From Balneolaceae bacterium (lineage in GTDB: Bacteria; Bacteroidota; Rhodothermia; Balneolales; Balneolaceae): a DNA stretch of 64,000 nucleotides. The notes under the pieces are model-generated. The model did no database searches, was not told the DNA's origin, and saw only the letters and a list, made by a program, of their open reading frames with translations. A program made the translations under genes and the position numbers. Below are positions 54,267 through 62,496 of this stretch, piece after piece (position 1 is the first letter of the stretch; every line of letters begins with the position of its first letter). Location of the stretch: assembly GCA_034521495.1 (NCBI GenBank), contig JAXHMK010000004.1, forward strand, positions 124,001 through 188,000. Reading direction: 5' to 3'.

Positions 54267-54491
54267 TTACAAACCACACATACCGCCGGAACAGCAACCT
54301 CCAGTAGTAGGTGGCGTGGAAGATTCACTTTTTGAATCAGTGAGGGCGATTCCGCTAAACACCTGCGTAAACTCTTTTGATGAGCAGTTCTCACATTGCA
54401 GTGATGATACCATTTCCTGCTTTTTATCGTACGATGAGCGGAACTCGATGATCTCTCCACAATCGACACACTTATATTCGTATAAAGGCAT
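54267..54491 (-). CDS. FmdB-type small zinc-ribbon protein
   Basis: 74 residues. Zinc-ribbon Cys8, Cys11, Cys33 and Cys36 (YEYKCVDCGEIIEF and LQCENCSSKEFTQVFSG), matching FmdB regulatory-type proteins. The C-terminus GGCCSGGMCGL adds three Cys and Gly residues. Family members are of uncertain function; some are adjacent to metal and formamidase genes. Here it faces away from the arsenic cluster that starts at 54671. Confidence 0.85.
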   Translation of the reverse strand: MPLYEYKCVDCGEIIEFRSSYDKKQEMVSSLQCENCSSKEFTQVFSGIALTDSKSESSTPPTTGGCCSGGMCGL

Positions 54492-54779: not shown

Positions 54780-55287
54780 ATGACAACTCAGACAGACACG
54801 AAAACAATTTTAGAAGTTTATGATCCGGCAATGTGTTGCAGTACCGGCGTCTGCAGCCCGAATGTAGACGACGAAATTGTCAGTTTTGCAAATGATGTAA
54901 AATGGTTAAAGACGCAGGGGGTAGAAGTAAAACGTTATAACTTGGGACAGGAGCCGGAAGCGTTTTAAAATGAATCCACAGGTTCTCTCAAGGCTGCAAA
55001 AGAAAGGCACTGAATGTTTGCCACTCATTTTAGTAAATGTAGATGTGGTATCAGAGGGCGGCCACCCCGGAAGGATTACAATTCTGAAAATTTTAATGGA
55101 GCGAGATTCTTGTTTCTGCGGTGATATTGCTGATGTTCTTCCTCTGGCACAATCTACTATATCACAACACTTGAAAGCTCTGAAAGAAGTCGAATTAATC
55201 TCAAGAACTGTAGATAGCGTTCGTACCTGTTACTGTCTTAATCCGGATGCAATTAGTGAACTAAATAATATATTATTAATCCTCTAA
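54780..55287 (+). pseudogene. Chimeric relic: arsD 5' part joined to arsR 3' part
   Basis: The first about 280 bp are a near copy of arsD at 57256 (YDPAMCCSTGVC; NDVKWLKTQGVEVKRYNLG), but an extra T in GCGTTTT (54963-54966) creates a stop at 54966. The frame continues at 54970 with MNPQVLSRLQKKGTECLPL, then after EGGHPGR changes to the C-terminal half of an ArsR (MERDSCFCGDIADVLPLAQ, STISQHLKALKEVELI, TVDSVRTCYCLN). The junction lies where ArsD has GGYPDR and ArsR has GHPAR, so recombination at short homology is likely. If the second frame is translated it would retain a DNA-binding helix without a normal N-terminus. Confidence 0.8.
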
Positions 55288-55312: not shown

Positions 55313-56077
55313 ATGAAAATCGCCCTTTTTAGTGATATACATGCAAATATTGATGCCCTTAAACCAGTACTTAATGATATCTATAACCGTAAACCTGATG
55401 CCGTGTATTGCCTTGGGGATCTTGTTGGATATGCGCCCTATCCAAATGAAGTGATTGAAACCATCAGAGAAAAAGGAATTCCGGTCATTGCAGGAAATTA
55501 TGACCAGGGTGTCGGATTGAAAAGTGATGACTGCGGCTGCGCTTACAAAAATGAAGAAGATGAAGCCAGGGGTGTTGAATCCATCACCTACACCAATAAG
55601 ATTATCTCTGAAGAGAATCGAAAGTATTTACGGTCACTTCCCGCACATCTCAGAGTTGAGTTTGGGGTGAATACGGATCCTTATCATCTGCTGCTTGTAC
55701 ATGGAAGCCCCAGGAAAATTAATGAATATCTTTTCGAAGACCGACCCGATAAAAGCATGATCCGAATGATGGAGAAAGCAAACGCTCATCTCATGGCGTT
55801 TGGCCACACCCACAAACCTTATCACAAAAGATTGGAAGACAGCGACGGGAACTTTCGCCATGCGATTAATATCGGATCCGTGGGAAAACCGAAGGATGGC
55901 GATCCGCGTGCCTGTTATGTGACGCTGGAGTGGGAAGATGACCTGGATTTGTCCCGCCCTAATGGACTAAACGTTGAATTTATTCGTGTGGAATATGATG
56001 TTGAAAAAGCAGCAAAAGCAGTTGAAGAGAGTCCGCTCCCCAATCCGTTCGCTGACATGCTCCGTAATGGAGGTTGA
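55313..56077 (+). CDS. Calcineurin-like metallophosphoesterase (MPE/YfcE-like)
   Basis: 254 residues. All five metallophosphoesterase blocks: SDIHANIDAL, LGDLVGYAPYPNEV, AGNYDQG, LLLVHGSPRKINEYLF, and AFGHTHKPYHK, with the two-metal site residues intact. A Cys-rich insert (SDDCGCAYKNEEDEA) is unusual for the family. Similar phosphoesterases occur in bacterial ars operons, some acting on arsenylated sugar phosphates; that role is inference. 25 bp downstream of the relic, so likely in the same transcript. Confidence 0.9.
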   Translation: MKIALFSDIHANIDALKPVLNDIYNRKPDAVYCLGDLVGYAPYPNEVIETIREKGIPVIAGNYDQGVGLKSDDCGCAYKNEEDEARGVESITYTNKIISEENRKYLRSLPAHLRVEFGVNTDPYHLLLVHGSPRKINEYLFEDRPDKSMIRMMEKANAHLMAFGHTHKPYHKRLEDSDGNFRHAINIGSVGKPKDGDPRACYVTLEWEDDLDLSRPNGLNVEFIRVEYDVEKAAKAVEESPLPNPFADMLRNGG

Positions 56078-56236
56078 TTTTTATTGAAATATGCGGAAAA
56101 AGGTGCACTCGTTTTATCAAATAAATTTAAGAAGCTGAATTTGAAACCAAAGAACATACGGAATAAAACTACACTGATTACACACCAGGGTGTAATACCT
56201 TCATTAAAACTTTCAAAGATCAATAAAAACAGTCCT

Positions 56237-56617
56237 ATGAGTAATATCAAACCTTTTTCGACAAAAAACCTTTACGCTTACTCAGCGGTATTTATCTCGA
56301 TGACCATCTTAAGTCTCCTGCTTTGGAGCCTCTATCTGATGATGAAGTACGGCGGATTTGAACTTCAATACTTCTCCACATATAGCATGGAACTTGTCTT
56401 CAGCTTTATAATGGTGATGAGCGGAATGATGATCATGTTTGTTGCTTCTCTGTTGAATTTGAGAAAAATGAGATCGGGCTGGGAGAAAATGGCGAAAGGA
56501 GAACAGGATGTAGATATCCCGAATGTTTGGTGCCCGGTTTTGACAACCGCCAAGCAGGCTGCAGAAGAGTTCACAAAAAACAAGATAGACCCAACAAGAA
56601 TAGAAACTAAAAAATAA
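56237..56617 (+). CDS. Two-helix membrane protein of unknown function
   Basis: 126 residues from ATG 56237 (MSNIKPFSTKNLY); a longer reading back to 56084 lacks a plausible N-terminus. Two membrane segments (YSAVFISMTILSLLLWSLYL; ELVFSFIMVMSGMMIMFVAS) followed by a charged tail ending ARIETKK-like Lys-rich residues. One Cys (IPNVWCPVLTTA). No family recognised. Seven bp before the DinB-like gene. Confidence 0.65.
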   Translation: MSNIKPFSTKNLYAYSAVFISMTILSLLLWSLYLMMKYGGFELQYFSTYSMELVFSFIMVMSGMMIMFVASLLNLRKMRSGWEKMAKGEQDVDIPNVWCPVLTTAKQAAEEFTKNKIDPTRIETKK

Positions 56618-56623
56618 AAGATT

Positions 56624-57067
56624 ATGAACAATCAACTATTTTACGACATGTGGAAGATGGGACGAACCCGTTTAACCAATCAGCTGGAAAGCATGAAAAA
56701 AGAGGACTTACTGAAACGAGTTCACAGCGATAGCAACAGCGTGGGCTGGCTGATGCGCCACATCGCAGAAGTGGAATTGTTATTTGCCAAGAATGTCTTC
56801 GGACGAGAGCTGAAATTAAAAGCTCAAACCATCGGCTCCATCGCCAAAGACCACGGACAGTTTGATGAGCTTGAACCTCTGCTGGAGCTCATAGAAAGAG
56901 CGGGAGATGAACTGGGTGCAGCCATTCAGGAGATTGAGGATTGGGAAGGCGAAGTTACTACGGCTGAATTTGGCACTGTCACCCGTGCGGAAGCTCTTGG
57001 CAGAATAACAACACATACCGCCTATCACGCTGGACAGGCTGCGCTGGCAAAGAAATACGGGGAATAA
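56624..57067 (+). CDS. DinB-like four-helix metal-binding protein
   Basis: 147 residues, four-helix DinB/DUF664-like. His residues in SVGWLMRHIAEVELL and TTHTAYHAGQAALAKKYGE, near the expected metal triad. DinB-fold enzymes include thiol-dependent transferases such as bacillithiol S-transferases, and are found in some metal and arsenic gene sets. No catalytic role can be proved here. Confidence 0.82.
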   Translation: MNNQLFYDMWKMGRTRLTNQLESMKKEDLLKRVHSDSNSVGWLMRHIAEVELLFAKNVFGRELKLKAQTIGSIAKDHGQFDELEPLLELIERAGDELGAAIQEIEDWEGEVTTAEFGTVTRAEALGRITTHTAYHAGQAALAKKYGE

Positions 57068-57255: not shown

Positions 57256-57891
57256 ATGACTACTCAGACAGACACAAAAACAATTTTAGAAGTTTATGAT
57301 CCGGCAATGTGTTGCAGTACCGGCGTCTGCGGTCCCGATGTAGACGACGAAATTGTCGATTTTGCAAATGATGTAAAATGGTTAAAGACACAAGGAGTAG
57401 AGGTAAAACGCTACAATTTGGGTCAGGAGCCGGAAGCGTTTAAGATGAATCCACAGGTTCTCTCAAGACTGCAAAAGGAAGGCACTGAATGTTTGCCACT
57501 CATTTTAGTGAATGGAGATGTAGTTGCAGAGGGCGGCTATCCGGATCGATCTCAACTCGAAAAAATGCTGGAAATTAATTCAAACACAAAAAAATCAACT
57601 GCTGAAGGTAAACAGATGGATCAATCACAAAATGTCATGACAGAACAAGTACAAGAGTTAGTTGCATTAGGTGCAGCTTTGGCATCAAATTGTGAATCTT
57701 GCCTTAAATTCCACTATAAAAAATCAAAAGAACTGGGATTGACGGAAGAGGATATTTCACAAGCATTGCAGATTGGTCAAAATGTAAAACAGGTTCCGGC
57801 AGGCAACATGATCAAGCTTGCAAACAAATTGTTGGGTGTAGAACAACAAGCTCCTGCAAACGGATGCGCTCCGGGCAGCGGATGTTGTTAG
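57256..57891 (+). CDS. arsD: ArsD-AhpD fusion: arsenic metallochaperone with CMD domain
   Basis: 211 residues. Residues 1-112 are ArsD, with the As(III)-binding Cys19, Cys20 and Cys25 (CC-x4-C as in ArsD of E. coli plasmid R773). It passes As(III) to ArsA. Residues 120-195 form a carboxymuconolactone-decarboxylase/AhpD-like domain (MTEQVQELVALGAALASNCE, then SCLKFHYKKSKELGL) with Cys-x2-Cys and His. The tail CAPGSGCC adds three Cys. Linkage is in frame, without a stop. A fused redox domain may reduce chaperone thiols or arsenical. Next gene is arsA. Confidence 0.88.
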   Translation: MTTQTDTKTILEVYDPAMCCSTGVCGPDVDDEIVDFANDVKWLKTQGVEVKRYNLGQEPEAFKMNPQVLSRLQKEGTECLPLILVNGDVVAEGGYPDRSQLEKMLEINSNTKKSTAEGKQMDQSQNVMTEQVQELVALGAALASNCESCLKFHYKKSKELGLTEEDISQALQIGQNVKQVPAGNMIKLANKLLGVEQQAPANGCAPGSGCC

Positions 57892-57894
57892 TGA

Positions 57895-58050
57895 AAATTC
57901 CCCTCTTGAGAGGGGAAAAGTGTAGACGAGCATGCGAAGCATATCGAGTCAAGCGAAGGGTGTGTTCTTTTGATTAACTCATTGCCCTGCTAAACACACC
58001 CCTGATGAAATCGCTAAACGCGTTTTCATCTGTCCCCTCTCAAGAGGGGA
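57895..58050. repeat. Inverted repeat between arsD and arsA
   Basis: TTCCCCTCTTGAGAGGGGAA at the left and TCCCCTCTCAAGAGGGGA at the right, with CATGCGAAGCATATCG and GAAATCGCTAAACGCGTTTT between. Each end is itself a palindrome and the whole 155 bp is again an inverted repeat. Same plan as 10580-10692. It splits the ars operon without an apparent new promoter. Confidence 0.7.
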
Positions 58051-58092
58051 TTTACTACCAAGAAATTTCAAGCCATTAGAACCAATACCATT

Positions 58093-59877
58093 ATGAAGAA
58101 CTTACCGCAAATCACACCTTATATCTTTTTCACCGGCAAAGGCGGAGTGGGGAAAACTTCTCTTGCCAGCGCAACGGCCGTTAAACTTGCCGATGAAGGC
58201 AAAAGCGTGCTGTTGATCAGTACCGACCCGGCCTCAAATTTAAAGGAGGTTCTTGAAACGGATGTGACGGAGAAAATCACTCCGATAAAGGGAATTGAAA
58301 ACCTGCATGCGGTTAATATTGATCCGGAACTGTCGGCGGAGGAGTATAGAAATCGGGTAATCTCTCCCATGGAGGATATACTTCCTGACCATGAAATTGA
58401 AAAAATACGGGAAGAATTGTCCGGCGCATGTACTACGGAGATCGCTGCGTTTGACGAATTTGCACGATATGTAGCGGGCGATGAGGATGATCAGCCGTAT
58501 GATGTGATCATTTTTGATACGGCGCCAACGGGTCACACGCTTCGTTTGCTGGAACTGCCCGCAGCGTGGAGCGATTTTATTGAGTCGAATCCTGATGGAG
58601 CTTCCTGTATTGGACCGTCATCTGCGTTGAAGACGAGCCAGGAGCGCTATCAAAAAGTAGTGGAACGCCTGCAGGATGAAGGATCAACGACCATCTATCT
58701 TGTGAGCCGCCCGGATGGTTCCGCACTTCGTGAGGCCAACCGATCGGGTATGGAGCTGGATGAAATGGGGCTCTCAAATCAGGTACTGTTGATCAATGGA
58801 TATTTTGAGCCGATTGACGAAACCGATTCATTTGCCATCAAGATGAAAGAGAGAGCGGATGAGACTTTGGAAAATATGCCCGAACGCCTCAAAAAAATGG
58901 AGCAGATGGTATTTCCGCTAAGGCCGTATAATTTACTGGGACTTGATCGCTTGCGGACTGTTTTTGAATCGCTTGATAAGGAAGCAATCAAGAGGGATAG
59001 CACGTCTATTTTAACGGAAGATCATGAAAGTGAGCTGCCTGATATAGATGCACTGGTTGATGATATCTCTTCCGAAAAAGAGCACGGACTGGTTATGACT
59101 ATGGGGAAAGGCGGTGTGGGTAAAACCACGATCGCAGCAGCAGTTGCCTTTAAACTGGCCGAGCGTGGATATCCCGTTCACCTGACCACCACAGATCCTG
59201 CAGCCCATTTGATGGATCATATCGGAGAGATGACAATACCCGAAAATATGACGGTGGATCGCATCGATCCGGATGAAGAGAAGCAAAACTACATTGAAAA
59301 AGTGTTAAAACAGCGCGGAAAGAATAAAACCGATGAAGAGCTGAAGCTGCTGCGGGAAGATCTGGAATCTCCCTGTACGGAAGAGGTTGCAGTTTTCCAG
59401 GCGTTTTCGAAAGCGATCCATGAGGCCAAACGGAAGTTTGTGGTGATGGATACGGCGCCGACCGGACACACCCTGCTGCTGCTCGATACAACGGGAAGCT
59501 ATCACAAAGAGATTCTCAGAAACACACAGATGGATAAAGACAAGCTTAAAACTCCATACATGTATCTGCAGGATCCGGATTACTCCAAACTGCTAATCGT
59601 TGCTCTGCCGGAAACCACTCCGATTACGGAAGCGGCAAAGCTTCAGGATGATTTGAGAAGATCCAATATTGAACCCTACGCGTGGATTGCCAATCAAAGT
59701 ATGTCGGCAACCAATATTTCAGATCCTCTGCTCAAGCAGCGGGCAGCTGAAGAGGTTCCGCTATTGGATGAAATCGATAAAAAACATGCAAAAAAACTCT
59801 ACGCGATTCCATGGGTTGCAGAGGAACCGGTTTTGAAAACACTTGTATCAAAACAGAAAAAGGATGTTACGGCCTGA
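58093..59877 (+). CDS. arsA: Arsenite-efflux ATPase ArsA (fused two-domain)
   Basis: 594 residues. Two ATPase halves, each with a P-loop (GKGGVGKTS at 15-23; GKGGVGKTT at 338-346), followed by DTAPTGHTLRLLELP and DTAPTGHTLLLLDTT. As(III)-binding Cys113 and Cys172 fall at exactly the E. coli R773 positions, and Cys428 corresponds to Cys422. It energises arsenite export with a membrane pump (ArsB in the classical case; here Acr3, 60923-62005). ArsD feeds it As(III). Confidence 0.96.
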   Translation: MKNLPQITPYIFFTGKGGVGKTSLASATAVKLADEGKSVLLISTDPASNLKEVLETDVTEKITPIKGIENLHAVNIDPELSAEEYRNRVISPMEDILPDHEIEKIREELSGACTTEIAAFDEFARYVAGDEDDQPYDVIIFDTAPTGHTLRLLELPAAWSDFIESNPDGASCIGPSSALKTSQERYQKVVERLQDEGSTTIYLVSRPDGSALREANRSGMELDEMGLSNQVLLINGYFEPIDETDSFAIKMKERADETLENMPERLKKMEQMVFPLRPYNLLGLDRLRTVFESLDKEAIKRDSTSILTEDHESELPDIDALVDDISSEKEHGLVMTMGKGGVGKTTIAAAVAFKLAERGYPVHLTTTDPAAHLMDHIGEMTIPENMTVDRIDPDEEKQNYIEKVLKQRGKNKTDEELKLLREDLESPCTEEVAVFQAFSKAIHEAKRKFVVMDTAPTGHTLLLLDTTGSYHKEILRNTQMDKDKLKTPYMYLQDPDYSKLLIVALPETTPITEAAKLQDDLRRSNIEPYAWIANQSMSATNISDPLLKQRAAEEVPLLDEIDKKHAKKLYAIPWVAEEPVLKTLVSKQKKDVTA

Positions 59878-60036: not shown

Positions 60037-60870
60037 ATGAAATTAAAACACGCTCTAATAGCTCTCGACTTGTCAAAATCCAGTAAAGATCTGGTGTACT
60101 GTATGGGTGATCTTAAACCGCTTGGGATTGAAAAAATCACCTTGGTTACGGCCGTTTCAAAACCGTATCCCGGCGGGCCTGAAAAATTTGATACGTCATC
60201 CTTTGAAGCCAAGCTGGAATCCTATTCACAAGACTTGCGCGATCAGGGGTTTGATACAGATTGGGAATTAAAAATAGAATCGAATATCTACGCTCCGGTT
60301 ACCATTCTGAAAACAGCAAAAGATCTTCAAGCTGATCTGCTAATTTTGGGACACCGAGGCCATAATCGTTTTTCTGAACTTTTTCTCGGAAGTGTAGCAA
60401 CAGAAGTTATTCAAAGAGCGATTTTACCGGTTCTTCTGCTCAGAATATCAGATGATCCCGACAAGAATAATGTTTCCATCTGCAAAAACATGACTCACAA
60501 CATGTTACTGGCTACTGATTTCTCAGAAAACGCCGACAGGGCAATGGAAGTGTTTGAAAATGAAAAGTTGAGCCAATCCAAAGTCACGATCTTTCACGTT
60601 CAACCTACTTCAACCAATGATACTTCTGCGTTAATGGAAGATCGTGAAAACAAATTAAAAGAAATGGGGCTGAAGCATGTCCGGTCGGATACAAAAAGAG
60701 GTAACGTTGGACTGACAATAACAGAATATGCCGATGAAAATGATATCTCCATGATTATTATGGGGTCCCAGGGTAAAAATTTTGTGGAAAACCTGTTTGT
60801 TGGAAGTAACAGTATGCGTGTTGCCCGTCACACGTCAAAACCACTATTATTGATTCCGGCTGACCGCTAA
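60037..60870 (+). CDS. Tandem universal stress protein
   Basis: 277 residues with two Usp domains. First half: LKHALIALDLSKSSKDLV and the ATP-binding-like LGHRGHNRFSELFLGSVATEV, with RAILPVLLL. Second half: NMLLATDFSENADRAMEVFE and MGSQGKNFVENLFVGS, then RHTSKPLLLIPAD. Stress-protein genes of this kind occur in some ars and metal clusters; role unknown. Located between arsA and acr3, so likely co-expressed. Confidence 0.9.
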   Translation: MKLKHALIALDLSKSSKDLVYCMGDLKPLGIEKITLVTAVSKPYPGGPEKFDTSSFEAKLESYSQDLRDQGFDTDWELKIESNIYAPVTILKTAKDLQADLLILGHRGHNRFSELFLGSVATEVIQRAILPVLLLRISDDPDKNNVSICKNMTHNMLLATDFSENADRAMEVFENEKLSQSKVTIFHVQPTSTNDTSALMEDRENKLKEMGLKHVRSDTKRGNVGLTITEYADENDISMIIMGSQGKNFVENLFVGSNSMRVARHTSKPLLLIPADR

Positions 60871-60922: not shown

Positions 60923-62005
60923 GTGTCTGAAGAAAAAAAATCGATCGACTTTTTTGAAAAGTACCTTACCGTTTGGGTTTTAATCTGTATTGCAGTTGGA
61001 ATTGGCCTCGGATATCTCGCCGGGGATTCCATTGAGGTGCTTAGCGACTTTAACCTTTACAATGTAAACATTCCCATCACGATACTGATCTGGGCTATGA
61101 TCTACCCGATGATGCTGCAAATTGACTTTGATTCATTGAAAGATGTGGGTAAAGCTCCGAAAGGTGTTGTCTGGACTGTTATTATAAACTGGGCGATTAA
61201 GCCGTTCACAATGGCTTTCTTTGCGTGGATCTTCTTTTATCACATCTACGGCGCGTGGATTGATCCATCCATGGCGCAGGAATACATCGCCGGAGCTATT
61301 TTATTGGGAGCCGCACCCTGTACGGCCATGGTTTTTGTGTGGTCGTATCTGTCTGATGGCGACCCTACGTATACGCTGGTACAGGTTTCCGTAAATGATC
61401 TTTTAATCCTGATTCTCTTCATCCCGATCGTAGCTTTTTTATTGGGGATTACAGATATCACCATTCCCTACAATACACTGGTAACATCTATTGTGGCATT
61501 TGTGGTTATTCCATTGGTTGCGGGTTATTTCACACATAAGATACTCGTGAATAAAAAAGGAATGGAGTGGTATACCATACGATTTCTGCCAAAATTTAAG
61601 CCGGTATCGATAAGTGCTCTTCTGTTGACGTTGATTCTTTTGTTCGCCTACCAGGGAGACCGGATTTTAAATGACCCTGTAGTCATCCTGCTCATCGCCG
61701 TTCCGCTGATTATCCAAACCTATTTCATTTTCTTCATAGCATGGTACGGTGGAAAATGGCTAAACCTGAACTACCAAACCTGTGCACCGGGTGCAATGAT
61801 TGGAGCCAGTAACTTTTTCGAGCTGGCGGTTGCCGTGGCGATCATGCTGTTCGGCATTCAATCGGGTGCCGCGTTGGTTACGGTTGTCGGTGTACTAATC
61901 GAAGTACCGATCATGCTGTCGCTGGTTAAGTTTGCCAACAGTCAAAGAGCGAGCTACAAAACGAGTGTTGAAAGAAAAGAAGAGAAAGAAAAAGTAATGG
62001 AATAA
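60923..62005 (+). CDS. acr3: Arsenite efflux transporter Acr3
   Basis: 360 residues, ten membrane segments; the start is GTG 60923. Family markers: LLGAAPCTAMVFVWSYLSDG with the essential Cys133, NDLLILILFIPIVAFLLG, and the C-terminal GASNFFELAVAVAIMLFG with the conserved Glu. Acr3 exports arsenite by proton antiport, and ArsA may couple ATP to it. In some strains called arsB. 52 bp after the stress-protein gene. Confidence 0.95.
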   Translation: MSEEKKSIDFFEKYLTVWVLICIAVGIGLGYLAGDSIEVLSDFNLYNVNIPITILIWAMIYPMMLQIDFDSLKDVGKAPKGVVWTVIINWAIKPFTMAFFAWIFFYHIYGAWIDPSMAQEYIAGAILLGAAPCTAMVFVWSYLSDGDPTYTLVQVSVNDLLILILFIPIVAFLLGITDITIPYNTLVTSIVAFVVIPLVAGYFTHKILVNKKGMEWYTIRFLPKFKPVSISALLLTLILLFAYQGDRILNDPVVILLIAVPLIIQTYFIFFIAWYGGKWLNLNYQTCAPGAMIGASNFFELAVAVAIMLFGIQSGAALVTVVGVLIEVPIMLSLVKFANSQRASYKTSVERKEEKEKVME

Positions 62006-62148: not shown

Positions 62149-62160
62149 AATGTGACACTT

Positions 62161-62496
62161 ATGGGCATTACTAAAGCAAAATTATTTAAATCCTCGCAAA
62201 AGCGATCCGCTGAGTTGATGAAAGCTCTCGGACATCCAGCGCGTGTTGCCATTATAGAACTGCTCGCAGATCGGGAAACTTGTATTTGTGGAGATATAGC
62301 AGAAGAGCTGCCGCTGGCCCAGTCAACCGTTTCGCAACATCTAAAAGCACTAAAAAAAGTTGGTATTATTACCGTTGAAATGGATGGTGTGCGAACTTGT
62401 TATTGTTTGAGTGAAAAGGGAATTCAGGAACTAAACGATCTATTGATTCCATTAATTAACGATGTAACAACCAAAAATAAGGAGAACTGCTGCTGA
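62161..62496 (+). CDS. arsR: Arsenic-responsive repressor ArsR
   Basis: 111 residues from ATG 62161; a GTG at 62152 lies right behind the operator and is less likely. Winged helix: ALGHPARVAIIELLADRE, then ELPLAQSTVSQHLKALKKVG, MDGVRTCYCLSEKG. Cys in CICGDI lie at the As(III)-sensing position of ArsR. A final CC is present. It should repress the sites at 31330, 54671, 57208 and 62131 and let go when arsenite binds. Confidence 0.93.
   Translation: MGITKAKLFKSSQKRSAELMKALGHPARVAIIELLADRETCICGDIAEELPLAQSTVSQHLKALKKVGIITVEMDGVRTCYCLSEKGIQELNDLLIPLINDVTTKNKENCC

Follow-up and report, generated by a model that had tools for sequence, protein, structure and literature searches.

An arsenic operon headed by an ArsD fusion

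The stretch of DNA analyzed here, to which we refer as the window, spans 64,000 nucleotides of a Balneolaceae genome and contains a run of genes encoded on the same strand in the order arsD-CMD, arsA, usp, acr3 and arsR (Table 1). The first of them encodes an ArsD protein that continues, within one open reading frame, into a CMD/AhpD-like domain (hereafter CMD), in agreement with the original prediction of an in-frame fusion, and the gene that comes next is arsA. The two are separated by an interspersed inverted repeat, which we take to be MITE- or REP-like, with 50 matches listed in the same genome and a fold z-score of -8.5 relative to shuffled sequences. A related copy (G000:C16:4065-4135) occupies the same position on contig 16 of this genome, between a decayed arsD-CMD copy and a broken arsA. 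The repeat may affect arsA expression.

Table 1 Features of the arsD-CMD locus (window coordinates)
Feature	Position	Strand	Basis
Decayed arsD copy, frame-shifted after residue 62, then arsR remnant	54780..55287	+	ORFs, Pfam, own-genome search
arsD-CMD fusion gene	57256..57891	+	Single ORF, ATG start, 211 aa plus stop
ArsD domain, residues 11-119, thioredoxin-like fold	57286..57612	+	Pfam and structural model matches
CCSTGVC, As(III) site Cys19/Cys20/Cys25 (R773 Cys12/13/18)	57310..57330	+	Invariant in alignments A1 and A2
CMD/AhpD-like domain, residues 129-175 (Pfam envelope); model helices 130-192	57640..57780	+	
Putative relay E134-x11-C146-x2-C149-x3-H153	57655..57714	+	Spacing equal to that of AhpD and PA0269
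C-terminal tail CAPGSGCC, residues 204-211	57865..57888	+	Read from translation
Interspersed inverted repeat, 166 bases, between arsD-CMD and arsA	57893..58058	+	
arsA, arsenical pump-driving ATPase	58093..59877	+	TIGR04291, 756 bits (cut-off 650)
Universal stress protein (usp), two Usp domains	60037..60870	+	Pfam
acr3 arsenite efflux transporter	60923..62005	+	TIGR00832, 380 bits (cut-off 283)
arsR/SmtB-type regulator	62152..62496	+	NF033788

The genome carries a second complete fusion (C4:190634-191254, 59% identity), located 9.4 kb further along the same contig in an ars group with the order arsR, usp, dinB, arsD-CMD, arsA and acr3. The arsA of this second group (L037, 3515-5288) is divided into two overlapping frames of 184 and 462 amino acids, the result of either a frameshift or an assembly error. 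With two intact copies in this genome and full-length fusions in 22 of 92 genomes of the family, a frame read-through or an assembly accident can be ruled out as the origin of the architecture. The decayed arsD copy in the window is 92% identical to the intact product over 64 residues, after which its frame shifts; the broken gene continues directly into the C-terminal portion of an arsR to form a chimeric ArsD/ArsR reading frame of 105 residues (54970-55287). On two contigs, the upstream side of arsD-CMD is adjoined by a nearly identical block (55313-57067 in the window and L038 872-2626) that encodes a metallophosphatase, an unknown protein of 177 residues and a DinB-like protein and that represents a recent segmental duplication; the copy on contig 16 is the one followed by the decayed arsD-CMD and the broken arsA.

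Domain organization and predicted structure of the fusion

Profile searches with the window protein returned a complete ArsD domain (PF06953, E = 1.2e-41, 142 bits, cut-off 27; NF033727, 126 bits, cut-off 90) and a CMD (PF02627, E = 7e-10, 39.2 bits against 23), both above their Pfam cut-offs, and the NCBIfam ahpD_dom model was passed marginally (TIGR00778, 28.4 bits against 27.8). The chain contains nine cysteines (19, 20, 25, 79, 146, 149, 204, 210 and 211), and all of the elements first noticed in it, namely the Cys19/20/25 triad, the CxxC with its histidine and the cysteine-containing tail, are present. According to the cited parts of PMC4562236 and PMC12607644, R773 ArsD binds As(III) via Cys12/13/18 and hands it to ArsA, and the C-terminal Cys pairs of ArsD have been linked to a regulatory role. 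The fusion resembles characterized ArsD structures and models (3kgk, 3mwh, 3ktb, PF06953, NF033727) in its complete domain, its CCSTGVC site and its arsA neighbour, and has CC pairs as R773 does, but differs from them in that its CC tail is separated from the ArsD core by a CMD of about 70 residues.

AhpD is described in the cited passages of PMC3141380 as an adaptor with a reactive dithiol that hands electrons to a partner, its relay being formed by Glu118, Cys130, His132, Cys133 and His137 in M. tuberculosis AhpD and by Glu36, Cys48, Tyr50, Cys51 and His55 in PA0269; the His/Tyr between the cysteines is, according to the same passages, not absolutely conserved. Four of these five positions and all of the spacings agree in the window CMD, the exception being the middle position, where neither His nor Tyr is found (Ser148); the other fusions mostly have CEPC or CESC. 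Gamma-carboxymuconolactone decarboxylase proper has no CxxC relay (PMC3141380, same passages) and is excluded for the window CMD, in which both the CxxC and the relay residues are present; the domain is thus AhpD-like and not a decarboxylase. Among the closest NCBIfam models are those of the GSU3128 (seleno)protein (NF041047, 31.7 bits, below the cut-off of 110) and of an ArsM-AhpD selenoprotein fusion (NF041537, 25.7 bits against 510, with the AhpD part alone matching), which would fit a redox chemistry in the handling of arsenic. Both share the small AhpD-like domain with our protein, in NF041537 likewise joined to an arsenic-handling protein, but the fusion scores far below the two cut-offs and has Cys instead of Sec, and the partner in NF041537 is a methyltransferase.

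An AlphaFold2 model of the window protein, built from a 45-row alignment, reached a pLDDT of 86.8 and a pTM of 0.55, with low values in the linker (residues 116-122); given this pTM, the relative placement of the two halves is unsure. The predicted ArsD half matches 3ktb (Z 16.1) and 3kgk (Z 15.0), while the CMD half matches 3bey (Z 9.9, rmsd 1.4, 64 aligned), RclX (7y4r, Z 9.7, rmsd 1.7, 69 aligned) and 2cwq (Z 8.2) and is predicted to adopt an AhpD-like helical fold. With AhpD-like proteins (M. tuberculosis AhpD, PA0269, RclX and O27018/3bey) it shares the E-x11-C-x2-C-x3-H pattern and, as predicted, this fold; unlike them, it has Ser between the cysteines and is a short domain carried on a chaperone.

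The fusion is widespread and appears undescribed

A domain search for the same architecture, as suggested in the original prediction, recovered 23 full-length fusion loci in 22 of the 92 genomes of the family, with one further genome holding a fragment at a contig end, and additional fusions in other phyla. No unfused ArsD was matched in the 92 family genomes. In the phylum sample, full-length matches came from 12 of 395 genomes, all belonging to two families of one order, and another 57 genomes matched the ArsD part only, so that 57 of the 69 ArsD-matching genomes are without the CMD. The cross-species scan, run with alignment A1 on one genome per species, found at least 574 relatives; the 80 highest-ranking loci were retained and all read, and fusions make up 52 of these best 80 loci, a proportion that overstates their frequency because the loci were chosen by similarity to the fusion. 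In 51 of the 52, a single ORF of at least 180 amino acids includes the C-terminal domain, and the remaining one, from Geothrix paludis SG195, was assigned after re-reading. ArsA is encoded within the retrieved DNA at 48 of the 52 fused loci.

The fusions are assigned, by record title and NCBI lineage, to Balneolota, Acidobacteriota, Verrucomicrobiota, Pseudomonadota, Myxococcota, Planctomycetota, Actinomycetota, Spirochaetota and Thermodesulfobacteriota, as well as to a Candidatus Ozemobacteraceae MAG. Their sources are mostly MAGs; two are cultured isolates with strain names, namely Geothrix paludis SG195 and Anaeromyxobacter sp. PSR-1, the latter of which encodes five ArsD proteins that include two CMD fusions. 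The architecture is accordingly neither unique to the source organism, a possibility ruled out by the cross-species scan, nor rare, since it extends over about ten phyla. A common plasmid cassette was likewise ruled out: none of the 2125 plasmid records with a match spans 80% of the query at a single location. The long ArsD frames of G294, G395 and G265, considered as other fusions, were rejected, because these frames are over-extended and ArsD is located close to their end.

The same domain is also found unfused. In three genomes (G374, G221 and G157), the CMD has a gene of its own (80-85 amino acids, with a CxxC) that adjoins an arsR-like regulator gene and is followed by fmdB, arsD and arsA, and a separate CMD lies upstream of arsD-arsA in L136, L149, L150 and L159 (the arsD frame of L159 is ambiguous). 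These groups resemble the fusion in that a homologous CMD stands together with arsD and arsA, but they encode two chains where the fusion has one. Because separate CMD genes adjoin arsD, the domain is tied to ArsD independently of fusion. An ArsD without a CMD occurs in one Balneolales MAG (L119).

Joining of ars functions is a recurrent theme: the cited part of PMC6205960 describes ArsN-ArsD, ArsR-ArsC, Acr3-ArsC and AqpS-ArsC fusions, with arsN joined to arsC or arsD, so that ArsD already has one such partner in ArsN; a CMD/AhpD partner is not among the ars fusions described there. We found no description of an ArsD with a CMD/AhpD domain in the open-access literature (PMC), and the architecture seems to be undescribed, fusions of this general kind being known (ArsN-ArsD, ArsM-AhpD). 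Since the fusion passes the NCBIfam ArsD equivalog cut-off, automatic annotation would label it plain ArsD, and the arsenic-export pathway may thus include a redox module that has escaped notice.

Conservation of the redox site and its probable loss in Balneolia

We compared the residues of the putative relay in 65 fusions (26 from Balneolia and 39 others), which were read by regular expression and not by alignment. The complete E-x11-CxxC-x3-H pattern is found in 36 of the 39 fusions from outside Balneolia and in 3 of the 26 within it (the window copy, L002 and L010); for the CxxC alone, the figures are 36 of 39 and 5 of 26. Half-way forms exist in Balneolia, with CESG in L081 and a CEPC lacking the His in L008, and Cys-less fusions were also found in one Flavobacteriales and one Rhodothermaceae MAG. 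The cysteine positions, whose inactivity would have spoken against the original prediction, are therefore intact in the window copy but affected in most relatives of its class. The CC pair within the last eight residues behaves differently, being present in 26 of 26 Balneolia fusions and 33 of the 39 others, where the tails often carry several such pairs. It occurs just as well in 24 of 32 unfused ArsDs, and the CAPGSGCC tail, originally counted as part of the redox equipment, loses its value as redox evidence.

The comparison and the trees used 13 of the 23 full-length family fusions (the window copy and 12 more). The ten left out (L011, L013, L015, L019, L020, L023, L024, L026, L027 and L028) all have a CMD without CxxC; six of them seem to be the same contigs as cross-species loci and four were omitted by choice. 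In a tree of fused ArsDs only, the CxxC label changes at least three times within Balneolia, gain and loss being indistinguishable on it, and a tree of the ArsD domain from fused and unfused proteins (97 columns, L159 omitted because its frame is ambiguous) shows 15 changes of the label that bears on one or many fusion origins, only 3 of them forced by starred branches. As the site is standard elsewhere, we infer that it was lost within Balneolia.

Despite this probable loss the domain persists. A model of the Cys-less L087 protein (pLDDT 83.6) retains a CMD that matches 3bey (Z 9.7, rmsd 1.7, 63 aligned), and dN/dS over the CMD part is 0.08-0.24 in Cys-less pairs (those with dS below 1.2) and 0.12 in the site-intact pair L002/L010. 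Because the fold is still predicted and dN/dS is low, the Cys-less CMD is kept and is not debris. Thus, in most Balneolia fusions, the redox site has probably been lost while the helices, under purifying selection, and the CC tail persist. As 21 of 26 Balneolia fusions and 3 of 39 others lack the CxxC, the arsenic role cannot depend on the redox site in every case.

A candidate thiol relay on an As(III) chaperone

Fusion of two domains hints at a functional partnership. Our main reading, to which we assign a probability of roughly 45%, is that the AhpD-type dithiol domain attached in this protein to an ArsD metallochaperone for As(III) would serve as a thiol relay, and that the same domain would be a redox-dead scaffold in most Balneolia. 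ArsD would pass As(III) from Cys19/20/25 to ArsA, while the CxxC of the CMD, fed by a cellular reductant, would act as a local thiol/disulfide relay, as in AhpD, that keeps the ArsD thiols in, or returns them to, the reduced, As(III)-binding state; the CC tail and ArsA thiols might be re-reduced by it as well. In most Balneolia the redox site would since have been lost, leaving a folded CMD that would serve as a scaffold, probably for oligomerisation or for binding a partner. The Pfam and NCBIfam domains, the AhpD spacing, the E/C/C/H residues conserved across phyla, the predicted fold, the arsA neighbour and the low dN/dS of the site-intact pair all point to a relay; Ser148 in the fifth position, the loss of the CxxC in many fusions and the ArsD-matching genomes of the phylum that manage without a CMD argue against it. 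The redox module proposed at the outset thus stands in so far as a thiol-redox-type domain with AhpD spacing is joined to the arsenite carrier, its relay residues are kept in nearly all fusions outside Balneolia and separate CMD genes lie beside arsD, and falls short where most Balneolia fusions have no CxxC. Methionines 121 and 128 in the window linker would permit the internal start that had been raised as an objection, but a linker Met occurs in just 11 of the 39 site-intact fusions (the count covers Met, not GTG or TTG), and separate expression of the CMD half in this way is not favoured by the sequences.

A stronger version, which we put forward tentatively and regard as rather doubtful, would make ArsD-CMD a self-reducing chaperone, in which the tethered relay gates the loading and delivery of As(III) and Balneolia lost the gate stepwise while keeping the scaffold. 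If true, arsenic export would be redox-responsive, gated by the thiol state of the carrier, and Balneolia would constitute a natural experiment. The series from intact through half to lost site, within one clade and one operon context, makes the role of the domain testable with natural variants.

The persistence of the Cys-less domain bears most directly on an alternative that we consider unlikely as a general account, namely that the CMD half acts chiefly as a scaffold for oligomerisation or docking, by which ArsD becomes multivalent for ArsA or the operator, its redox site being ancestral and dispensable. The retained fold of the L087 model, the purifying selection on Cys-less pairs and the oligomerisation of AhpD-like proteins noted in the cited parts of PMC3141380 and PMC7950407 agree with it, but the relay is strictly conserved in most other phyla and survives in the window copy and its paralogue. 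We prefer a scaffold for the Cys-less Balneolia, and a relay for the window copy and for most of the other phyla. Equally, the nine cysteines in one chain, the invariant CC tail of the Balneolia fusions and the multiple CC pairs of other phyla would suit an enlarged As(III) buffer, in which the CMD dithiol and the tail provide extra sites that pass the metalloid via Cys19/20/25 to ArsA with no redox turnover; this, too, is improbable, as Glu and His are conserved at AhpD spacing together with the cysteines (36 of 39) and a mere sponge needs neither.

Less plausible still is a peroxidase or other detoxifying enzyme that acts on oxidants of arsenic stress and is fused to ArsD just for co-expression and co-location. 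RclX, one of the structural matches, is AhpD-like and protects against HOCl (cited part of PMC7950407), and PA0269 reduces H2O2, though weakly (cited passages of PMC3141380). Against this, Ser148 replaces the relay His/Tyr, the repeated joining to ArsD in one chain suggests that the substrate is part of ArsD, and no oxidant link was seen within the operon. The handling of As(V) or thioarsenicals ahead of ArsA, raised in the original prediction, found no positive support and is very improbable: the window has no arsenate-reductase motif of the low-molecular-weight-phosphatase type and the genome no PF03960 ArsC, but at C4:100192 the genome does encode a protein of the low-molecular-weight-phosphatase type that may be an ArsC, such a motif near 9 of the 52 fused loci means that the CMD is no replacement there, and we know of no precedent for arsenate reduction by an AhpD-type protein.

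Other ArsD extensions and neighbours

Several further arrangements were observed at the loci read. Two ArsDs of Anaeromyxobacter sp. PSR-1 (L193, 381-1109 and 9744-10394) carry another C-terminal extension of about 80-110 residues, without a CxxC, and Pfam finds nothing beyond ArsD in the one that was scanned. In a genome of the Thermodesulfobacteriota sample, which was seeded with a fusion-bearing genome, an ArsD-like domain with the changed motif CCSGGGCG is fused in frame to an Acr3-type transporter (L174, 1492-2883, 463 amino acids). Directly upstream of the fusion in Geothrix paludis SG195 lies a separate CMD-like ORF with a Cys-rich tail and no CxxC (L090, 5671-6297). Finally, the minus strand near the window arsD (54267-54491) encodes a small zinc-ribbon protein of the FmdB type with a Cys-rich tail, and three distant genomes of the phylum (L061, L062 and L063) have a gene for such a protein adjacent or close to arsD as well, making it a possible further ars partner.
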